From contig NC_015663.1 in assembly GCF_000215745.1 (NCBI RefSeq), positions 2,356,001 to 2,420,000 on the forward strand: a DNA stretch of 64,000 nt. The letters run 5' to 3'. How positions within the stretch are numbered: position 1 is the first letter of the stretch; every line of letters starts with the position of its first letter. Below are positions 19,977 through 63,058 of the stretch, piece by piece. The stretch is from Klebsiella aerogenes KCTC 2190. Its GTDB lineage: Bacteria > Pseudomonadota > Gammaproteobacteria > Enterobacterales > Enterobacteriaceae. The notes under the pieces are model-generated. The model saw nothing but the letters and a program-made list of their open reading frames with translations. It had not been told where the DNA came from and did not search any database. A program made the translations under genes and the position numbers.

Positions 19977-20744
19977 ATGCAGGCATTGCTGGAACACTTT
20001 ATCACCCAATCCACGGTCTACTCGTTGATAGCCGTGATGCTGGTGGCATTTCTTGAGTCGCTAGCGCTGGTGGGGCTTATCTTACCCGGCACGGTCATGA
20101 TGGCTGGTCTGGGGGCGCTTATCGGCAGCGGCGAAGTTAACTTCTGGCAGGCGTGGCTGGCGGGGATTGTCGGCTGCCTGTTGGGAGACTGGATCTCATT
20201 CTGGCTCGGCTGGCGCTTTAAAAAGCCGTTACACCGCTGGTCGTTTATGAAAAAAAATCGCGCGTTGCTGGAGAAAACCGAACACGCGCTGCACCAGCAC
20301 AGCATGGTGACGATTCTGATTGGCCGCTTTGTCGGACCGACGCGGCCATTGGTGCCGATGGTCGCCGGGATGCTCGACCTGCCGGTAGCGAAGTTCGTGC
20401 TGCCGAATATTATTGGCTGCCTGCTCTGGCCGCCGCTCTATTTCCTCCCCGGCATTCTGGCGGGGGCGGCGATAGATATTCCTGCCGATGAAAACAGCGC
20501 CAGCTTCAAGTGGCTGCTACTGGGCGCGGCGCTGCTGGCGTGGCTGGCGGGCTGGCTGTGCTGGCGGCTGTGGCGGAGCGCGAAAACTTCCGGAGATCGT
20601 CTGACCCGTTGGTTACCGCGTGGACGCCTGCTGTGGCTGACGCCGTTGATGGTGACGCTGGCGGTAGCGGCGCTAACGTTTGTCTTCCGCCATCCCCTGA
20701 TGCCGGTCTACCTTGAGATACTGCATAAGGTCATTTCGCGCTAA
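19977..20744 (+). CDS. yabI: YabI, DedA-family inner-membrane protein
   Basis: A 255-residue polytopic membrane protein of the DedA (SNARE-associated/VTT) family, members of which are implicated in lipid flipping and membrane energetics. Diagnostic segments include [16 protein letters not shown] near the N-terminus and [18 protein letters not shown] in the middle. Several hydrophobic helices are evident. It sits between araC and the thi operon as in E. coli, and its last 14 bp overlap the 3' end of the convergent thiQ. Its specific role is not established. Confidence 0.94.
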
Positions 20745-21432
20745 TTCCCAACAGCGCCGAGGCGCTGCTGTTGCCGCTTAGCAGGTCGTCAGTGGCGCCG
20801 TCCCAGGCAATGCGCCCTTCGGCGACCACGATGGAGCGAGGCGCAATGCGCGCCGCATCCTCCACGCTGTGCGATACCATTAACAGCGTCAACTGCTGCC
20901 GCTGACAGACATCGGCGACCAGCGTTAGCATCTCCTGGCGCAGCGCCGGATCGAGCGCCGAGAAGGGTTCATCAAGCAGCAGCACCGGCTGTTGGCGTAC
21001 CAGACAGCGGGCCAGCGCCGCCCGCTGCCGCTGGCCGCCGGATAGCTCGCCAGGCAGGCGATCCAGCAGCGTATCCATTCCCATCTGTCCGGCTATCGCC
21101 GTGACCTGTGCGCGCTGCTCGCGGTTCAGCTTCAGGCCGGGGTGAATGCCGAGGCCAATATTCTGCCGGACGGTGAGATGGTTAAACAGGTTGTTCTCCT
21201 GAAACAGCATAGAAACCGGACGCTGTGCCGGCGGCGTGGCGTTATGCTTCTCGCCGTCGATCAGCAGGCTACCGCTGGCGGGGGGCAGAAACCCGGCAAT
21301 CAGATTCAGCAGCGTGCTCTTTCCGGCGCCGCTGGGACCGAGCACGGCGATGCGCTCTCCGCACTCGACGCTGAGCGTAAAGCGCATCGGCAAGTGCTGA
21401 TACAGCCAGGTGACATCATTGAGTTTTAGCAT
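20731..21432 (-). CDS. thiQ: ThiQ, thiamine ABC transporter ATPase
   Basis: ATP-binding subunit of the thiamine/TPP importer ThiBPQ. The 233-residue protein has Walker [10 protein letters not shown] (32-40), Q-loop Gln78, signature LSGGQ (130-134) and Walker B LLLDEP (151-156). It is the last gene of thiBPQ, overlapping thiP by 17 bp. Its stop codon lies inside the convergent yabI coding region. Confidence 0.96.
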
Positions 21433-23026
21433 CGCGTCCCGGTAGTTTCTCGATCAAAGTAAAAAGGATAAAGCACAGCAACAGGAGCAGGAGCGCGGTG
21501 ACCGCGCCGTCCTGGCTGCGGTAGGAGCCGATCTGCTGATACAGATAGAACGGCAGCGTGCGGAAAGATTCATTGCCGAATAGCGCCACCACGCCGAAGT
21601 CGCCGATTGACAGCACGCAGGCGAAAGCCAGGGCCTGCGCCAGCGGCCGTTTCAGCGCCCGCACCTCCACCACCCGCAGCCGGTTAAAACCTTGTAGCCC
21701 CAACGACTGACACAAAGCGCCATAGCGGGCGGCAATATCGCGCATTGGATTTTCCAGCACTTTCAGGGCATAGGGGATAGCCATCAGCGCGTTGGTAAAG
21801 ATGACAATCCCGTCGGCGGATTCCGGCAGGCCGACGCTGTTATTGAGCAGCAGGAAGAAACCGGTCGCCAGCACAATCCCCGGCATGGCGAGGATGAGCA
21901 TACCGCTGAGCTCCAGCGTCTGCCCGGCCAGCGGCAGGTTGCGGGCACGCAGTTCGCGACTGCTCCACAGCAGCATCATGGTCAGAATGACGCTGAGCAC
22001 ACCGGCGGCGAGGGCGATACGCAGCGAGGTCCACAGCGCCTGCCATAGTGCGGCTTGGCCCAGCACCTTCGGCAGATTGACGTTGAGACCATCGACGATC
22101 ACCGCCAGTAGCGGCGGAAGCAGCAGCAGCAGAGCGAGCGCGATTAGCGCGTAATCACACAGGCGACTATGCAGACGGTCGTCGGGGTCGCGCCAGCCTT
22201 GTAACTGACTGGCGCCGATAGCCACGGCTTTGCTCAGGCGCTGGCTCAGCAGCACCAGCCCAAGGCAGCAGATCATTTGAATAATCGCTAACAGCGCCGC
22301 CCGTGCCGGGTCGTAATCAAAGCTCAGCGCCTGATAGATAGCCAGCTCAATGGTGGTGGCCCGCGGCCCGCCGCCTAGTGACAGCACGGTGGCAAAACTT
22401 GCGAAGCACAGCATAAAGATCAGCGCGGCCACCGGTGGGATCTGTCGACGCAGCCACGGCCATTCCACAAGACGGAAGAAGACGAAACCGCGCATGCCGA
22501 GCTGAGCGGCGATTTGCCGCTGTTCGCCGGGGATGTTTTCCAGCGCCTGCAGCAGCAGGCGGGTCGCCATTGGCATATTAAAGAACACATGGGCCAGCAG
22601 GATGCCCTGTAAGCCATACGGCGAGAAATCCCACTGCCAGCCGAGCGCGTGGAACAGCGCGGCGAGCCACCCCTGGCGGCCATAGACGCTGAGGATGCCG
22701 AACACCGCCACCAGTACCGGCAGGATCAACGTCATCGCGCACAGGCGCAGCAGCAGCGTGCGCCCCGGAAAGCGGCGGCGATACAGGGCGCGGGCGAGGA
22801 ATATCGCCGGCACTACCGAAAATAGCGCCGACAAAAACGCCTGCCAGAAAGAGAAGCGTACGACGTGCCAGAGATAGCTATCGCTGAGGATCGTCTGCCA
22901 GGGCGCCAGCGGCGCCTCCAGCCACAGCGCCAGAAACGCCGCCAGCGCTACGATGACCAGTAAGCAGGCCGCGGCGCCGCCGGGGATCAGCCAGCCGAAA
23001 CTTAGCGGCTGACGGCGCGTTGCCAT
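21416..23026 (-). CDS. thiP: ThiP, thiamine ABC transporter permease
   Basis: A 536-residue permease made of two fused MetI-like halves, as in other iron/thiamine-type importers. About twelve transmembrane helices are expected. An EAA-type loop is visible in each half ([18 protein letters not shown] and [19 protein letters not shown]). It starts [16 protein letters not shown], overlaps the end of thiB by 25 bp, and is co-transcribed under the TPP riboswitch. Confidence 0.96.
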
Positions 23027-23985
23027 GAACCGATCCAGTTTTGACGTTCAGCGGCGACCTGCTGCGGGGTGAACTGCAGCGTGGTTTGCGGTTTGGTTAG
23101 CGTATTGAAGCCGGCCGGCAGCGCCACCTGGGTCACCGGGTACATCCAGTTGCCGGTGGGGATGGCGTTCTGGAAGCCTGGCGAGACCATAAATTTCAGG
23201 AACTTCTCAGCCAGTTCCGGCTGCTTGCTGGCGGCGGTACGCGCGGCGACTTCAACCTGCAGATAGTGGCCTTCGGTAAAGTCCGCCGCGGCATAATTAT
23301 CTTTTTTCTCTTCGATGAGGTGATAAGCCGGCGAGGTGGTATAGCTCAACACCAGGTCGCTTTCGCCTTTCAGGAACAGGCCGTAGGCTTCGCTCCAGCC
23401 CTTGGTGACGGTGACGGTTTTGGCCGCCAGCTTCTGCCAGGCTTCCGGCGCCTTATCGCCATACACCTTTTGCATCCACAGCAGCAGGCCGAGCCCCGGC
23501 GTACTGGTGCGCGGGTCTTCGTAAATCACGCGCCATTTCTGCGGGCTCTCGACCAGCTCTTTCAGGCTTTTCGGCGGATTTTTCAGCTTGTTTTTGTCAT
23601 ACACGAAGGCGAAGTAGCCGTAGTCGTAAGGTACAAAAGTGTCATTATCCCAGCCGCCGGGTACGGTGACTGCGCTGGCCGGCACGCCGCTTTTGGCAAA
23701 CAGTTTGCTCTGCGCCGCCGCTGCCAGCAAATTGTTATCAAGGCCGAGCACGACATCGGCTTTGCTGTTTTTGCCTTCCATTCGCAGCCGGTTAAGCAGC
23801 GAGACGCCATCTTCGAGGGCGACATATTTCAGTTCGCAGCCGCAATCGGCCTCAAAGGCCTTTTTCACCGCCGGGCCAGGACCCCAGTCGGCGGAGAATG
23901 AATCGTAGGTGTAAACGGTCAGGACCGGTTTAGCAAAGACCGGGGCGGCGACCAGCGCCAGCAGGGGAAGCAGTTTTTTCAACAC
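23002..23985 (-). CDS. thiB: ThiB (TbpA), thiamine-binding periplasmic protein
   Basis: Substrate-binding protein for thiamine, TMP and TPP. The GTG at 23985 was chosen because it gives a regular 18-residue signal peptide (LKKLLPLLALVAAPVFA, then KPVLTVYTYDSF), has AGGTG just upstream, and yields 327 residues as in E. coli. The longer frame would run into the riboswitch expression platform. Conserved ligand-region segments include GLDNNLL, FDYGYFAFVYD-like YDYGYFAFVYD, and GNWMYPV. It is the first gene of thiBPQ. Confidence 0.96.
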   Translation of the reverse strand: MLKKLLPLLALVAAPVFAKPVLTVYTYDSFSADWGPGPAVKKAFEADCGCELKYVALEDGVSLLNRLRMEGKNSKADVVLGLDNNLLAAAAQSKLFAKSGVPASAVTVPGGWDNDTFVPYDYGYFAFVYDKNKLKNPPKSLKELVESPQKWRVIYEDPRTSTPGLGLLLWMQKVYGDKAPEAWQKLAAKTVTVTKGWSEAYGLFLKGESDLVLSYTTSPAYHLIEEKKDNYAAADFTEGHYLQVEVAARTAASKQPELAEKFLKFMVSPGFQNAIPTGNWMYPVTQVALPAGFNTLTKPQTTLQFTPQQVAAERQNWIGSWQRAVSR

Positions 23986-24026
23986 TTTGCACCTCAGTAT
24001 ATGGGGAGGCAAAGGATTTTGAGTAG

Positions 24027-24236
24027 GCCTCAAATCCCTTCGCCGGCGTTATCCGGATCAGGTTCGACGGGTATTTTCTCAGCCCATACGCTTCATCCTT
24101 CAAGCCGCATCTGGGTTAGCTTCGCGCGTTCACCCCAGTCACATAGTTATCTATGCTCCAGGGGATTCACCCGCTTGCTGCCTTGATGCAACTTGAATGA
24201 TATTGCGTATGTTTATTAGCACCCCGTTGAGAACGG
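24027..24236 (-). promoter_or_regulatory. TPP riboswitch of thiBPQ, interrupted by an ERIC element
   Basis: Read on the minus strand, all conserved THI-box parts are present. P1 is CTCAA (24232-24228) with TTGAG (24033-24029). The 5' core GGGGTGC (24226-24220), CTGAGA (24082-24077), ATACCC, GAACCTGATCCGGAT (24065-24051), GCCGGCG and AAGGGA follow. TPP binding represses expression of thiamine genes in this family. The core is split: about 137 nt separate GGGGTGC from GCTGAGA, compared with a short P3 arm in the usual E. coli form. A complete ERIC element (24086-24210) fills that arm. Because ERIC is itself a long hairpin, the TPP pocket may still fold. Confidence 0.92.
24086..24210. repeat. 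ERIC element inside the TPP riboswitch P3 arm
   Basis: A 125-bp enterobacterial repetitive intergenic consensus. Its core contains TTCACCCCAGTCAC (24129-24142) and GGGGATTCAC (24161-24170), and both classic ERIC primer sites are present back to back (24127-24148 and 24149-24170), each matching at 19 of 22 positions by eye. Outer arms pair ATACGC (24086-24091) with GCGTAT (24205-24210), and CTTCAAGCCGCAT with ATGCAACTTGAA. Full length and termini argue for a single insertion event. Confidence 0.9.
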
Positions 24237-24273
24237 CGATAGTGTAATGATTTTGTTAGATGACGCAAAGCAT

Positions 24274-25929
24274 TCAGGGCTCCGGCGGGGCGAACCACGC
24301 CGATTTAAAGTCGAACCAGCCGAGGGTGTTCATGCGCACGCCGCGCATACTGCGCTGGCCCTGAATCATTAGCCAGTGGTGGATCAGCGGTACAATATGC
24401 TGCTTCTCCAGCAGTTGCTGGCTCCAGGTCGCCGGGTTGAACTCGCCTGCGCGCCAGCGGTTGGCGTCTGCCTCCCAGTCGATGGGAATGCAGTGATGCA
24501 TCAGCGGCACTTCATATAAATAGGCGAACAGGGAAAAATCGATCGGCAACGTGAAATTGACGCTGTTGAGCCAGATATCGCTCACCGTTTCGCCGCGATG
24601 CCAGTCGTCGTACTCCAGCTCCTGAATGTTCAGCCTCACCTGATGTTCCGCCAGCAGCGCCCGCATGATCCCGCCAATGACCCGATGTTCCACATGATCG
24701 CGATAGTAGGTGAGGGTAACTGACTCCAGGCCGGCTGGTTTATCGCAGGCGTGACTGCGGGCGTGGTGCCAGCGCGGCAGCAAGCCGTAGGCCGGGAACC
24801 AGTTGCCTTGATAGTGCTCGCCGGCGTGATACAGCAGGTTGGCGGGCTGGAACAGATAACTTAACCAGCGGCGCACGTCATCATTGCCGCCCAGCGGGCT
24901 TCGACTATCAAAGAGCAGGTAATAGCACCCCTCTTCCAGGCGGCTCTCTACGGCTTTTTCGCTCTCGGTATTGCCCTGCAGGGTTAAGCCGCCGTTGGGT
25001 TCTTCGCTAATTTCCGGCAGCACCCAGACGTTAACCTCATCGATCAGCGCCCGATAGCCGAAGTACTCTTCGAAGGCATGGATTTTCAACTGATTTTGAT
25101 TATTGCGCGCGACCGCGTAAGGGCCGGTACCGATAGGCATACTGGAAAAGTTCTCCATCGTCCGCCATTCCTGCGGCAGCGCCATCGCCGGGACCTGGCC
25201 TAACAGCCAGGGCAGCCAACGATCCGGCTGGCTAAGGTGAATATCCAGCGTCCAGGCGGTCGGCGAGACGATGCGCTCGATATGGGAAAATAGCGGCAGT
25301 TCGCTGCTGCGCTGTAGCGAGGAGATAACGTCGGCCATCTCCAGCTCCCGGCCATGATGGAAATGAATGCCGGGACGCAGGAAAAAGCGCCAGTGGTTAG
25401 GCGAAATTTGCTGCCAGTGGTGGGCGATATCGGCCTCCAGTTCCCCATTTTCCTCATTTACCCGCGTCAGCGCGCTAAAAATTTGCCGTGCGATGTGGGT
25501 CTCCGAACGGCGCAACGCGCTGCCGGGCAGCAGATTCTTCATCGGCCGATAGTAGAGCACGCGCAGGATGTGGCGCCCCTGGCGGAAGCTGCGGCCAAGA
25601 TGGGAGATCAACATCTGTCTGACCGCGGTTTTATCGCCAACCAGTTGCACCAGCTGATCGATGCGATCCTGCTCCAGTAGATCCTCGGCGCGCTGCTGCT
25701 GCAGCGCCAGACCGGTATAAAGGAAGGTCAGTCGGGAACGCTTGCCGCGCCCGGCTTCGGATTCCCAGGCAAGCCAGCCGCGCGCTTCCATCAGATTAAG
25801 CAAGGTGCGCATATGGCGGCGCGAACAGCTGAGCATTTCCGCCAGTTCGTTGAGGGTGGTCTGCTGCGACCTGCCGTCGCAGCATTGCCACAGGCGGATG
25901 AACTGTTGTTGCAGACGACTGGAAGGCAT
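24274..25929 (-). CDS. sgrR: SgrR, transcriptional activator of sgrS
   Basis: A 551-residue regulator, the same length as E. coli SgrR. The N-terminal winged-helix ([27 protein letters not shown], about 25-51) is fused to a solute-binding-protein-like domain (about 160-551) that is thought to sense the sugar-phosphate stress signal. It starts [17 protein letters not shown] and ends [13 protein letters not shown], as in E. coli. It is divergent from sgrS, 67 bp between the start codon and the predicted RNA 5' end, and expected to activate sgrS and repress itself. Confidence 0.96.
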
Positions 25930-26016
25930 AAAAGAGGAACTCCTGACGAAAACTCAGCAATTTATCAGTTCCTATATTAAGCCAATAATGGACCTCGATG
26001 AAGTAAGGAGATGAAT

Positions 26017-26169
26017 ATGACGAGGTCAACCACTAAGCAGTTCTATCAACGGTACTTTTCTGCGACGCAGGGAGCGTCCTGGCTGGCCCGCCAGTTAGCA
26101 GGTAGGCAGCAGAAAATGCTGGAGGAATTGATGCAGTGGGGAGTTACGTCGCCGACCTCCGATCGTTGA
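26017..26169 (+). CDS. sgrT: SgrT small protein, inhibitor of PtsG
   Basis: A 50-residue ORF inside SgrS. KQFYQRYFSATQ and KMLEELMQW align with RQFYQHYFTAT and TMLEGLMQW of E. coli SgrT (43 residues) without gaps over about 35 positions. AAGGAG (26005-26010) sits six bases before ATG 26017; the in-frame ATG at 26011 abuts that site and is unlikely. SgrT blocks glucose transport through PtsG directly. The N-terminus has about five extra residues (MTRSTT) and the C-terminal tail TSPTSDR also differs. Confidence 0.9.
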   Translation: MTRSTTKQFYQRYFSATQGASWLARQLAGRQQKMLEELMQWGVTSPTSDR

Positions 26170-26203
26170 CTTGCCGACATCATGTGTGACTGAGTATTGG
26201 TGT

Positions 26204-26260
26204 TATACTCGCCATCTTCAGGCTGCAAGCGCATTGGCTGCAACTCGAAATCCAGAGTAT
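26204..26260. repeat. Internally deleted ERIC-like palindrome within SgrS
   Basis: ATACTC (26205-26210) pairs with GAGTAT (26255-26260), and TTCAGGCTGCA (26217-26227) pairs imperfectly with TGCAACTCGAA (26239-26249). The left arm up to TTGGCTGC (26234-26241) resembles the left arm of ERIC. The ERIC core with GTCAC and GGGGATTCAC is missing, so this looks like an ERIC that lost about 70 internal bases. Confidence 0.72.
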
Positions 26261-26329
26261 TGAATCACCCGCCAGCAGATTGCTTCTGCTGGCTTTTTTC
26301 GTTTACTTCGCGTGTGTTAAGGATATTTC

Positions 26330-40046: not shown

Positions 40047-40075
40047 TAAAAAAACCCGCGCAATGGCGCGGGTTT
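40047..40075 (-). terminator. leu operon attenuator terminator
   Basis: Minus strand: AACCCGCGCC, loop, and GCGCGGGTTTTTTT. It lies between leuL and leuA and is the attenuator hairpin released when ribosomes stall at the leuL leucine codons. Confidence 0.9.
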
Positions 40076-40096
40076 AGTGTCTTGCTGGAAGATGAC

Positions 40097-40183
40097 TTAA
40101 CGCTGAACGTCGCCCAACAGCCTACCGCGCACAATGGATGCGTTTAGTAGTAGTAGGCTGGTGAAGCGAGTGGTGCGAATCAT
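40097..40183 (-). CDS. leuL: leu operon leader peptide
   Basis: A 28-codon leader, MIRTTRFTSLLLLNASIVRG, followed by eight more residues. Residues 10-13 are four consecutive leucines, all CTA, a rare codon that sharpens the response to charged tRNA-Leu. E. coli leuL also has 28 residues and four leucines. The frame is too short to appear in ordinary ORF lists. Position between the leu promoter and the attenuator confirms its role. Confidence 0.92.
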   Translation of the reverse strand: MIRTTRFTSLLLLNASIVRGRLLGDVQR

Positions 40184-40217
40184 GCGTCATACTCCAGTTG
40201 AAATCGATATGCTTTTA

Positions 40218-60585: not shown

Positions 60586-61844
60586 TCAAGGCGACGGACA
60601 GAAAACTGGTAGTTGGACTGGAGATTGGCACCGCGAAGGTTGCCGCTTTAGTAGGGGAAGTTCTGCCCGACGGTATGATTAATATCATTGGCGTGGGCAG
60701 TTGCCCATCGCGCGGCATGGATAAAGGCGGGGTGAATGACCTCGAGTCGGTAGTGAAATGCGTACAGCGCGCTATCGACCAGGCTGAACTGATGGCCGAT
60801 TGCCAGATCTCATCAGTGTATCTGGCGCTTTCAGGTAAGCATATTAGCTGTCAAAATGAGATTGGCATGGTGCCTATCTCCGAAGAAGAGGTGACGCAGG
60901 ATGACGTGGAAAACGTCGTTCATACCGCGAAATCGGTACGCGTACGCGACGAACATCGCGTACTGCACGTCATCCCGCAGGAATACGCCATCGACTACCA
61001 GGAAGGTATTAAAAACCCGGTAGGGTTATCCGGCGTGCGTATGCAGGCGAAGGTACATCTGATTACCTGCCATAACGATATGGCGAAAAACATTGTTAAA
61101 GCGGTTGAACGTTGTGGTCTGAAAGTTGACCAACTTATTTTCGCCGGTTTAGCGGCCAGTTATTCCGTATTAACGGAAGACGAACGTGAGCTGGGTGTCT
61201 GCGTAGTGGACATCGGCGGTGGTACAATGGATATCGCCGTGTATACCGGCGGCGCGCTGCGTCACACCAAAGTGATCCCTTACGCGGGCAACGTGGTGAC
61301 CAGCGACATCGCCTATGCCTTCGGTACGCCGCCGAGCGACGCCGAAGCCATCAAGGTTCGTCACGGTTGCGCATTAGGTTCAATCGTCGGTAAAGACGAA
61401 AACGTGGAAGTACCGAGCGTGGGCGGACGTCCGCCGCGTAGCCTGCAGCGTCAGACGCTGGCGGAGGTGATTGAACCGCGTTATACCGAACTGCTCAATC
61501 TGGTTAATGAAGAAATCCTGCAGCTGCAGGAACAGCTCCGTCAGCAAGGGGTCAAACACCATCTGGCGGCGGGGATTGTTTTAACCGGCGGCGCCGCGCA
61601 AATCGAAGGCCTGGCGGCCTGCGCGCAGCGCGTGTTCCATACGCAGGTGCGCATTGGCGCGCCGCTGAACATTACCGGTTTAACGGATTACGCTCAGGAG
61701 CCGTATTATTCGACGGCGGTTGGGCTGCTGCACTACGGAAAAGAGTCACATCTCAGTGGTGAAGCAGAAGTCGAAAAACGCGTGACGGCGTCAGTGGGCT
61801 CGTGGATTAAGCGACTCAACAGCTGGCTGCGAAAAGAGTTTTAA
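60582..61844 (+). CDS. ftsA: FtsA, actin-like division protein
   Basis: Actin-fold ATPase that tethers FtsZ to the membrane. The 420-residue product has the phosphate loops [11 protein letters not shown] and [14 protein letters not shown], the 1C domain, and the C-terminal amphipathic membrane-targeting helix [14 protein letters not shown]. The same length as E. coli FtsA. Overlaps ftsQ by 4 bp. Confidence 0.97.
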
Positions 61845-61906
61845 TTTTTTAAGAGAACGCAGACAATTAGCGTTCTCAGGCGACAGGCACAAGACGGAGA
61901 GAAACT

Positions 61907-63058
61907 ATGTTTGAACCTATGGAACTGACCAACGACGCGGTGATTAAAGTCATCGGCGTCGGTGGCGGCGGCGGTAATGCCGTTGAACACATGGTGCGCG
62001 AGCGCATTGAGGGTGTTGAATTCTTCGCGGTGAACACCGATGCGCAGGCGCTGCGTAAAACGGCTGTTGGCCAGACTATCCAGATCGGTAGCGGTATTAC
62101 CAAAGGTCTGGGTGCAGGCGCGAACCCGGAAGTTGGCCGTAATGCGGCTGACGAAGACCGTGAAGCGCTGCGCGCTGCGCTTGATGGCGCGGACATGGTC
62201 TTTATCGCGGCGGGTATGGGCGGCGGTACCGGTACCGGTGCGGCGCCAGTGGTCGCGGAAGTGGCGAAGGATCTGGGTATCCTGACCGTTGCGGTCGTCA
62301 CTAAGCCATTTAATTTCGAAGGCAAGAAGCGCATGGCGTTTGCTGAGCAGGGGATCACCGAGCTGTCCAAGCACGTTGACTCACTGATCACCATCCCGAA
62401 CGACAAGCTGCTGAAAGTACTGGGTCGCGGTATCTCTCTGCTCGACGCTTTTGGCGCGGCAAACGACGTACTGAAAGGCGCGGTGCAGGGTATTGCCGAA
62501 CTGATTACCCGTCCAGGTCTGATGAACGTCGACTTCGCGGACGTTCGTACCGTGATGTCGGAAATGGGCTACGCAATGATGGGCTCCGGCGTGGCGAGCG
62601 GTGAAGACCGTGCGGAAGAAGCGGCTGAAATGGCTATCTCTTCTCCGCTGCTGGAAGATATCGATCTGTCCGGCGCGCGTGGCGTTCTGGTCAACATCAC
62701 CGCTGGCTTCGACCTGCGTCTGGATGAGTTCGAAACCGTTGGTAACACTATCCGCGCCTTTGCTTCGGATAACGCGACCGTGGTTATCGGTACCTCTCTG
62801 GACCCGGATATGAACGACGAGCTGCGCGTAACCGTTGTTGCGACCGGTATCGGTATGGACAAGCGTCCGGAAATTACCCTGGTGACCAACAAACAGGTAC
62901 AGCAGCCGGTAATGGATCGCTACCAGCAGCACGGTATGGCTCCATTAACTCAAGAGCAGAAACCGGTCGCGAAAGTGGTGAACGACAATACGCCGCAAAC
63001 CGCGAAAGAGCCGGATTATCTGGATATTCCAGCTTTCCTGCGTAAGCAAGCCGATTAA
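61907..63058 (+). CDS. ftsZ: FtsZ, tubulin-like division GTPase
   Basis: Forms the Z ring. The 383-residue product has the tubulin signature GGGTGTG near 106-112, the T7 loop [11 protein letters not shown], and the C-terminal peptide [14 protein letters not shown], which binds FtsA, ZipA and MinC. It lies 62 bp downstream of ftsA and is the last division gene of the dcw cluster. Confidence 0.98.

Follow-up and report, generated by a model that had tools for sequence, protein, structure and literature searches.

The closest described system is the TPP riboswitch (RF00059) of thiBPQ/tbpA in Escherichia coli and Salmonella. It occupies the same place as the element analysed here, ahead of thiB and downstream of sgrR, and has the same core bases, the same P1, P2, P4 and P5, and a Shine-Dalgarno sequence near the platform. 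There P3 is a short hairpin, whereas here it consists of a 125-nt ERIC element and its junction. In the thiC riboswitch Kp04 of Klebsiella pneumoniae, P3 length likewise varies while the TPP response stays, and P3 changes altered the response to an analogue; however, the P3 piece is 24 nt long, the operon is another one, and the available text of the paper names no mobile element (PMC12632268). A mobile repeat is also transcribed within a riboswitch leader in Streptococcus pneumoniae, where a BOX element lies between two T-boxes ahead of trp (PMC3049150, text in part). That element sits between two aptamers, whereas the ERIC described here lies within the folded body of a single one. In Yersinia, ERIC is known as an mRNA-stability element, a transcribed hairpin whose RNase E effect depends on orientation; as cited in the accessible parts of PMC3049150 and PMC10969869, it is described at gene ends or within operons, not in a ligand-binding RNA. 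The latter source, as far as its text was available, also remarks that MITEs might form riboswitches. A full-text literature search, with most subscription journals outside its coverage, returned no report of ERIC in a riboswitch. What is new here is that a MITE forms the P3 arm of a TPP riboswitch. This is clearly an instance of a bacterial mobile repeat being incorporated into the fold of a ligand-binding RNA, and a selfish element has apparently turned into a component of a functional gene switch.

The DNA analysed is a 64-kb stretch of Klebsiella aerogenes KCTC 2190 (contig NC_015663.1, positions 2,356,001 to 2,420,000), called the window hereafter, and all coordinates refer to it. A complete TPP aptamer was read on the minus strand at 24029-24231, upstream of thiBPQ. 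The ORF list places thiB at 23002-23985 (minus strand, GTG start), followed downstream by thiP (21416-23026) and then thiQ (20731-21432), both on the minus strand, and places sgrR (24274-25929) upstream of the leader; the four names are those that we take these ORFs to bear. That the aptamer precedes a thiamine gene was established from ORF order and from thiB homologues. From 24231 downwards the leader runs through CTCAA (P1), CGGGGTG, a 137-nt insert, CTGAGA, the remainder of the aptamer and TTGAG, which ends at 24029. Sequence and folding together place the P1 5′ strand CTCAA at 24227-24231 and the P2 5′ strand with the P3 root at 24218-24226 (CGGG 24223-24226; GCT 24218-24220). The insert comprises the nine-base junction CTAATAAAC, the 125-nt ERIC (24086-24210) and GGG (24083-24085). 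The junction (24211-24219), located between GGGGTG and ERIC and identical in several genera, overlaps the P3 root, which falls within the bases flanking ERIC. On the other side of the element, again from sequence and folding, 24077-24085 carries the 3′ junction GG, the 3′ strand of the P3 root (24082-24084) and J3-2 (TGAGA); it is followed by the P2 3′ strand CCCG (24068-24071), the P4/P5 arm (24037-24062) and the P1 3′ strand TTGAG (24029-24033), common to the aptamer and the expression platform. All elements of the TPP core are present, namely P1, P2 with GGGGTG, J3-2 CTGAGA, and P4/P5 with GAACCTGAT...CCGG. A preliminary description had reported a core split into GGGGTGC and GCTGAGA by ERIC, and the two halves are indeed found at 24219-24225 and 24077-24083 with the element between them.

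The predicted expression platform (23986-24028) was placed by folding, and its Shine-Dalgarno sequence GAGG (23992-23995) was read from the sequence. A probable -10 box, TACACT, was likewise read at 24241-24246 on the minus strand; a consensus promoter scan returned no promoter-like site in this region. Transcription would start near 24234 on the same strand, as deduced from the 5′ RACE site of S. Typhimurium, reported 129 bases before the tbpA start codon in the available text of PMC3511261, and from the distance of 126 nt between CTCAA and GTG in S. arizonae.

The element itself is 125 bp long (the ERIC type measures about 127 bp), is bounded by the terminal inverted repeats ATACGC/GCGTAT and forms a single long hairpin that makes up the distal part of P3 as a long extension. 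With the element as BLAST query, it is the sole ERIC of the window at E≤1e-5. Seven other copies fetched from the same genome, where copies are dispersed, are 76-83% identical to it. Its bases and ends are those first described, and the BLAST matches and genomic copies agree with its identity. A repeat other than ERIC was ruled out by BLAST and copy number. A census with an ERIC-core pattern gave matches in 214/392 genomes. The ERIC core holds GGGGTG (24131-24136, minus strand), the same six bases as the TPP P2/J2-3 strand, and this internal motif could act as a decoy strand competing for P2.

In the covariance-model search, the Rfam TPP model (RF00059) matched 24018-24147 with 48.6 bits, below the gathering threshold of 54.3, and the match is misplaced on its 5′ side, where the P2 strand is set on the ERIC GGGGTG (24131-24136) instead of the true strand at 24220-24225. 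At the gathering level Rfam finds no TPP element in the 64-kb window; only SgrS (25997-26300, plus strand), a leucine leader (Leu_leader; 40048-40197, minus strand) and a PssrA-like RNA (61824-61915, plus strand) reach it. Thirty-three orthologous loci were then scored. All nine with a full ERIC, one of them tandem, fell below gathering (42.8-51.1 bits), whereas all fifteen with a shortened ERIC (55.9-68.1 bits) and all nine without ERIC (63.1-69.2 bits) lay above it. Since the 24/24 shortened or ERIC-less orthologues pass with the same core, the low score is due to insert length and not to loss of the core, which by sequence is whole. Rfam thus has a blind spot, its gathering level missing the riboswitch with full-length ERIC, for example that of the K. 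pneumoniae type strain, the insert of which is identical to L008.

The 5′ core strand CTCAACGGGGTG is identical in 40/40 distinct inserts of at least 25 nt, a few of which are not ERIC (e.g. L160, L161), and in 38/39 shorter ones. This count admitted only rows with a near-exact core; as these comprise 20/20 loci of the genus and 79/80 named loci, the selection bias is small there. The core is constant among genomes that are widely diverged elsewhere, with thiB/sgrR identities to the window of 79-90%. A thiB leader of another genus (L215; G333, g22) has the variant core strand CAACGGGTG (CGGGTG), which is one G shorter, and its long P3 is not clearly an ERIC; this variant was excluded from the counts. 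These data bear on the view that ERIC broke the switch and that the core of a dead or dying riboswitch persists through recent common descent. Rejection of the aptamer at the Rfam cut-off, possible competition of the decoy GGGGTG (24131-24136) for P2 and the occurrence of two genomes of the genus without ERIC would fit such a decay. However, the core is unchanged across widely diverged genomes, the folding cost is unchanged and the K. pneumoniae orthologue responds to thiamine (PMC12632268, text in part), which makes a dead switch very improbable.

P3 is derived from ERIC in 18 of the 20 genomes of the genus. Six carry a full ERIC (the window genome G000, G011, G012, G013, G016 and G019), one a tandem (G008) and eleven an internally shortened element; G001 and G003 have none. 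Besides the window genome, ERIC, whole or shortened, thus occupies the same place in the same orientation in 17/19 genomes, a recurrence that excludes chance. Named thiB loci (the best 80 of 369) were classed by insert length and then checked by eye. A full or shortened ERIC was present in 22, a short P3 in 57, and one (L043) is without the 5′ part of the leader. Records of K. pneumoniae, K. oxytoca, K. michiganensis, Raoultella, Citrobacter and Kluyvera are among the 22. The nearest named row to the window on the sgrR+thiB tree is K. pneumoniae, with 85% identity. The comparison of related genomes that had been proposed thus yielded both ERIC-bearing and ERIC-less loci, with the core unchanged. 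In L043, from a Pluralibacter MAG, the 3′ end of the leader alone remains and the upstream sequence is replaced, which could reflect an assembly join. One record titled Chryseobacterium sp. (L053, CACSKA010000010.1) holds an enterobacterial thiB locus with a full P3-ERIC and 89% best-segment identity; its label is probably wrong.

In the wider family, a pattern consisting of an ERIC-type end beside GCTGAGA matched 44/391 genomes. Thirty loci from the pattern matches, six further stretches and a further set of loci were read, and ERIC or its remains were found in the thiB P3 of eight genus codes (g1, g23, g41, g61, g125, g134, g140 and g142). An order-wide search with an over-strict pattern matched 7/180 genomes, all of the window's family, and is uninformative on other families. 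Among the other TPP riboswitches read, ERIC was found in P3 of 0/5 thiC-type (L146-L149, L168) and 0/5 tenA-type loci (L162-L166); these types are our own reading, and the loci came from a non-exhaustive pattern requiring GTAT beside GCTGAGA.

The arm takes several forms beyond the single full copy. Two tandem ERICs, in a 262-nt insert with the core unchanged, are present in P3 of L041 (R. ornithinolytica) and L019 (G008). In L159 (G079, g61) the P3 ERIC is interrupted by a nested G+C-rich hairpin insert, and the whole P3 insert measures 218 nt. A different hairpin lies between retained ERIC ends in L157 (g125) and in the middle of L015. In L217 (G038:C1:789550-790050; g20), the insert in the thiB P3 (145-261, minus strand) is 117 nt long and is no ERIC; a segment of about 57-63 nt has seven other matches of 79-86% in the same genome, and therefore a second repeat family has entered P3. 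Citrobacter sp. wls619 (L055, 1360-1484, minus strand) has another ERIC-like element, oppositely oriented, between its aptamer and thiB. The loci form a natural gradation, with ERIC absent, shortened, full or doubled in tandem, by which the load of foreign RNA that an aptamer can bear, the gain and loss of arm length, and the tuning of switches by mobile hairpins become testable.

The RNA folding suggested in the preliminary description gave -89 kcal/mol for the minus strand of 24020-24245 (z -5.46), a value that 0/200 shuffles reached. Forcing the aptamer core with the native ERIC costs 4.61 kcal/mol in silico for the aptamer alone, close to the cost in relatives with a short P3. Among distinct inserts, the median cost was 3.97 kcal/mol for short ones (n=37), 4.64 for inserts of 25-109 nt (n=25) and 4.61 for those of at least 110 nt (n=14, up to 262 nt), after 3/79 inserts (L061, L085, L161) had been dropped because a core strand could not be placed. 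The difference between short inserts and those of at least 110 nt gave p=0.11, and that between short and all long inserts p=0.0014, for a difference of about 0.6 kcal/mol. When ERIC was replaced in the same frame by 300 dinucleotide shuffles of itself, the mean cost rose to 9.58 and only 2/300 were as low as the native 4.61. The native cost is well under that of the shuffles, and the window ERIC therefore folds as a self-contained domain. For the whole leader the cost of the aptamer is 9.8 kcal/mol, owing to competition between the platform and P1, and the unconstrained fold differs from the aptamer fold. At most of its positions the Shine-Dalgarno sequence is predicted, for the whole leader, to be less open in the aptamer-bound than in the free fold, which matches the expectation for a translational off-switch.

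Pairing was also compared among 12 full-ERIC aptamers. In these, 94.0% of the paired cells hold (92.5% when shuffled) and 17 cells changed on both sides (shuffled mean 6.9), all of them inside ERIC; further pair types were not above shuffles (21 vs 20.1, 196/500). The covariation in the ERIC arms may have arisen before the insertion, as these end pairs also vary among ERIC subtypes at other places. For the 22 shortened inserts, a full donor was given the real deletion and, for comparison, deletions of equal size at other positions. The proportion of placements with equal or greater stability was at most 0.36 in 18/22, the exceptions being L012 (0.43), L155 (0.53), L158 (0.95) and L157 (1.0). 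Since some rows go back to a common event, the L157 insert is a replacement and the deletion is broken up in some alignments, no statistic was drawn.

The folding costs bear on what ERIC does in this arm. It is probable, if by no great measure, that P3 tolerates any self-folding insert and that ERIC is a passenger without effect on regulation. The folding cost is equal for inserts of 3 to 262 nt, ERIC has been shortened internally, it has been replaced by other hairpins in L157 and L015, and a different repeat family occupies P3 in G038. In the preliminary description, ERIC was suggested as a possible influence on folding time, ligand response or RNase sensitivity of the leader.

Published work on orthologues provides evidence of activity. 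Kp01, the K. pneumoniae thiBPQ riboswitch under its native promoter, gave a thiamine response in an E. coli reporter, according to the available text of PMC12632268. Because the K. pneumoniae type strain (L037) carries a full ERIC at the same place, the Kp01 construct, judged from sequence, probably contained the element; the main text of that paper does not mention ERIC. It cites a reference (39) for an extended P3 in K. aerogenes and Serratia, and the main text of that reference names neither the genus of K. aerogenes nor Serratia. SroA is a short RNA of the thiBPQ/tbpA leader, and an SroA probe detects two transcripts in K. pneumoniae (PMC3511261, text in part); the main text of that report contains neither the word "ERIC" nor the word "repetitive". 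In both the window and the K. pneumoniae type strain, the probe is an exact match to the aptamer 3′ of ERIC; the three other TPP elements of the window's genome (L001-L003) differ from the probe by 4, 7 and 6 bases. K. pneumoniae has 247 nt between CTCAA and GTG and S. arizonae has 126 nt, so that the greater leader length is due to ERIC. The element could thereby explain the larger SroA transcript and larger intergenic region of K. pneumoniae that the available text of PMC3511261 describes. The smaller SroA band may stem from another TPP leader or from cleavage.

The proposal that ERIC is a giant extension of P3 which removed no conserved TPP base is borne out by the sequence, by the loci with and without ERIC, by the folding cost and by the published response of the K. 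pneumoniae orthologue. We consider it probable that the ERIC-carrying P3 belongs to a working TPP riboswitch, with an old insertion in which the core and the closed hairpin are under selection. ERIC would have inserted at the distal end of P3, clear of the ligand contacts. Pairing between its inverted repeats would extend the short P3 root and make the 125 nt a self-folded unit, with no change to the binding core, the P1 switching strand or the expression platform relative to ERIC-less relatives. Binding of TPP would then close P1 and hide the thiB ribosome-binding site, as in ordinary translational TPP switches. Selection seems to keep the core and the closed P3 hairpin, not the ERIC sequence, which many species have shortened internally. 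The anatomy, the distribution, the shortening and the low in-silico folding cost are direct results of this analysis; the order in which the parts fold, how this genome's leader switches and what kind of selection acts are our inference. A further, unlikely reading makes the ERIC arm a functional module: it would delay completion of the aptamer during transcription and give RNases a cutting site, the resulting intact and ERIC-cut leader forms, held by the core, being the two SroA bands of K. pneumoniae, and the thiB P3 would be a standing landing pad for ERIC and at least one other repeat family (L217).

As to the origin of the arm, we lean towards one old insertion passed on by descent or exchange, with loss. 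The working riboswitch could also have received several independent ERIC insertions at one tolerated spot, a possibility that we hold to be the lesser but a real one. On the sgrR+thiB tree the ERIC rows form four separated clades, and the 6 changes equal four gains plus two losses, whereas a single origin would take about a dozen losses (counted by eye). In the free tree, five non-P3 ERICs fall inside the clade of 19 that contains the P3 copies (98/94), and in G079, with its shortened and split P3 copy, another ERIC is closer to the window's than the P3 copy is; most of the non-P3 copies had been chosen from rankings of similarity to the ERIC of the window, and some mixing is therefore expected. 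Against repeated insertion, every P3 ERIC that was read has the identical orientation, and Klebsiella, g125 and g140 share an identical junction CTAATAAAC. Moreover, the single full P3-ERIC is the best match to the window's in 3/3 genomes (G418, G274 and G378, among 26, 34 and 11 matches respectively), narrowly so in G378 (83 vs 82%). Finally, a single clade of the 14 P3 copies was not rejected (p-AU 0.443); these include the first tandem copy of R. ornithinolytica, and p-AU is 0.039 with that copy labelled outside P3. The ERIC-less sites (G001, G003 and 57 named loci) include none in which the CTAATAAAC/GGG flanks are joined with one target copy.

As a control for retention at P3, five of the seven other ERICs fetched from G000, not picked for conservation, were followed at their orthologous sites. 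In the 19 other genomes, a whole or partial ERIC match was found in one at the first site (G001), in two at the second (G004, G001), a weaker control with flanks not adjacent in several genomes, and in two at the third (G016, G017). The fourth site retains a match in at least 10/19 (nine unbroken plus G013), nine further genomes having 18-230 unmatched bases there, and the fifth in 4/19 (G012, G013, G019, G001), as compared with 17/19 for the thiB P3. The fourth site shows that an ERIC can be retained for long outside P3 as well, and the higher retention at P3 could be explained simply by its greater age.
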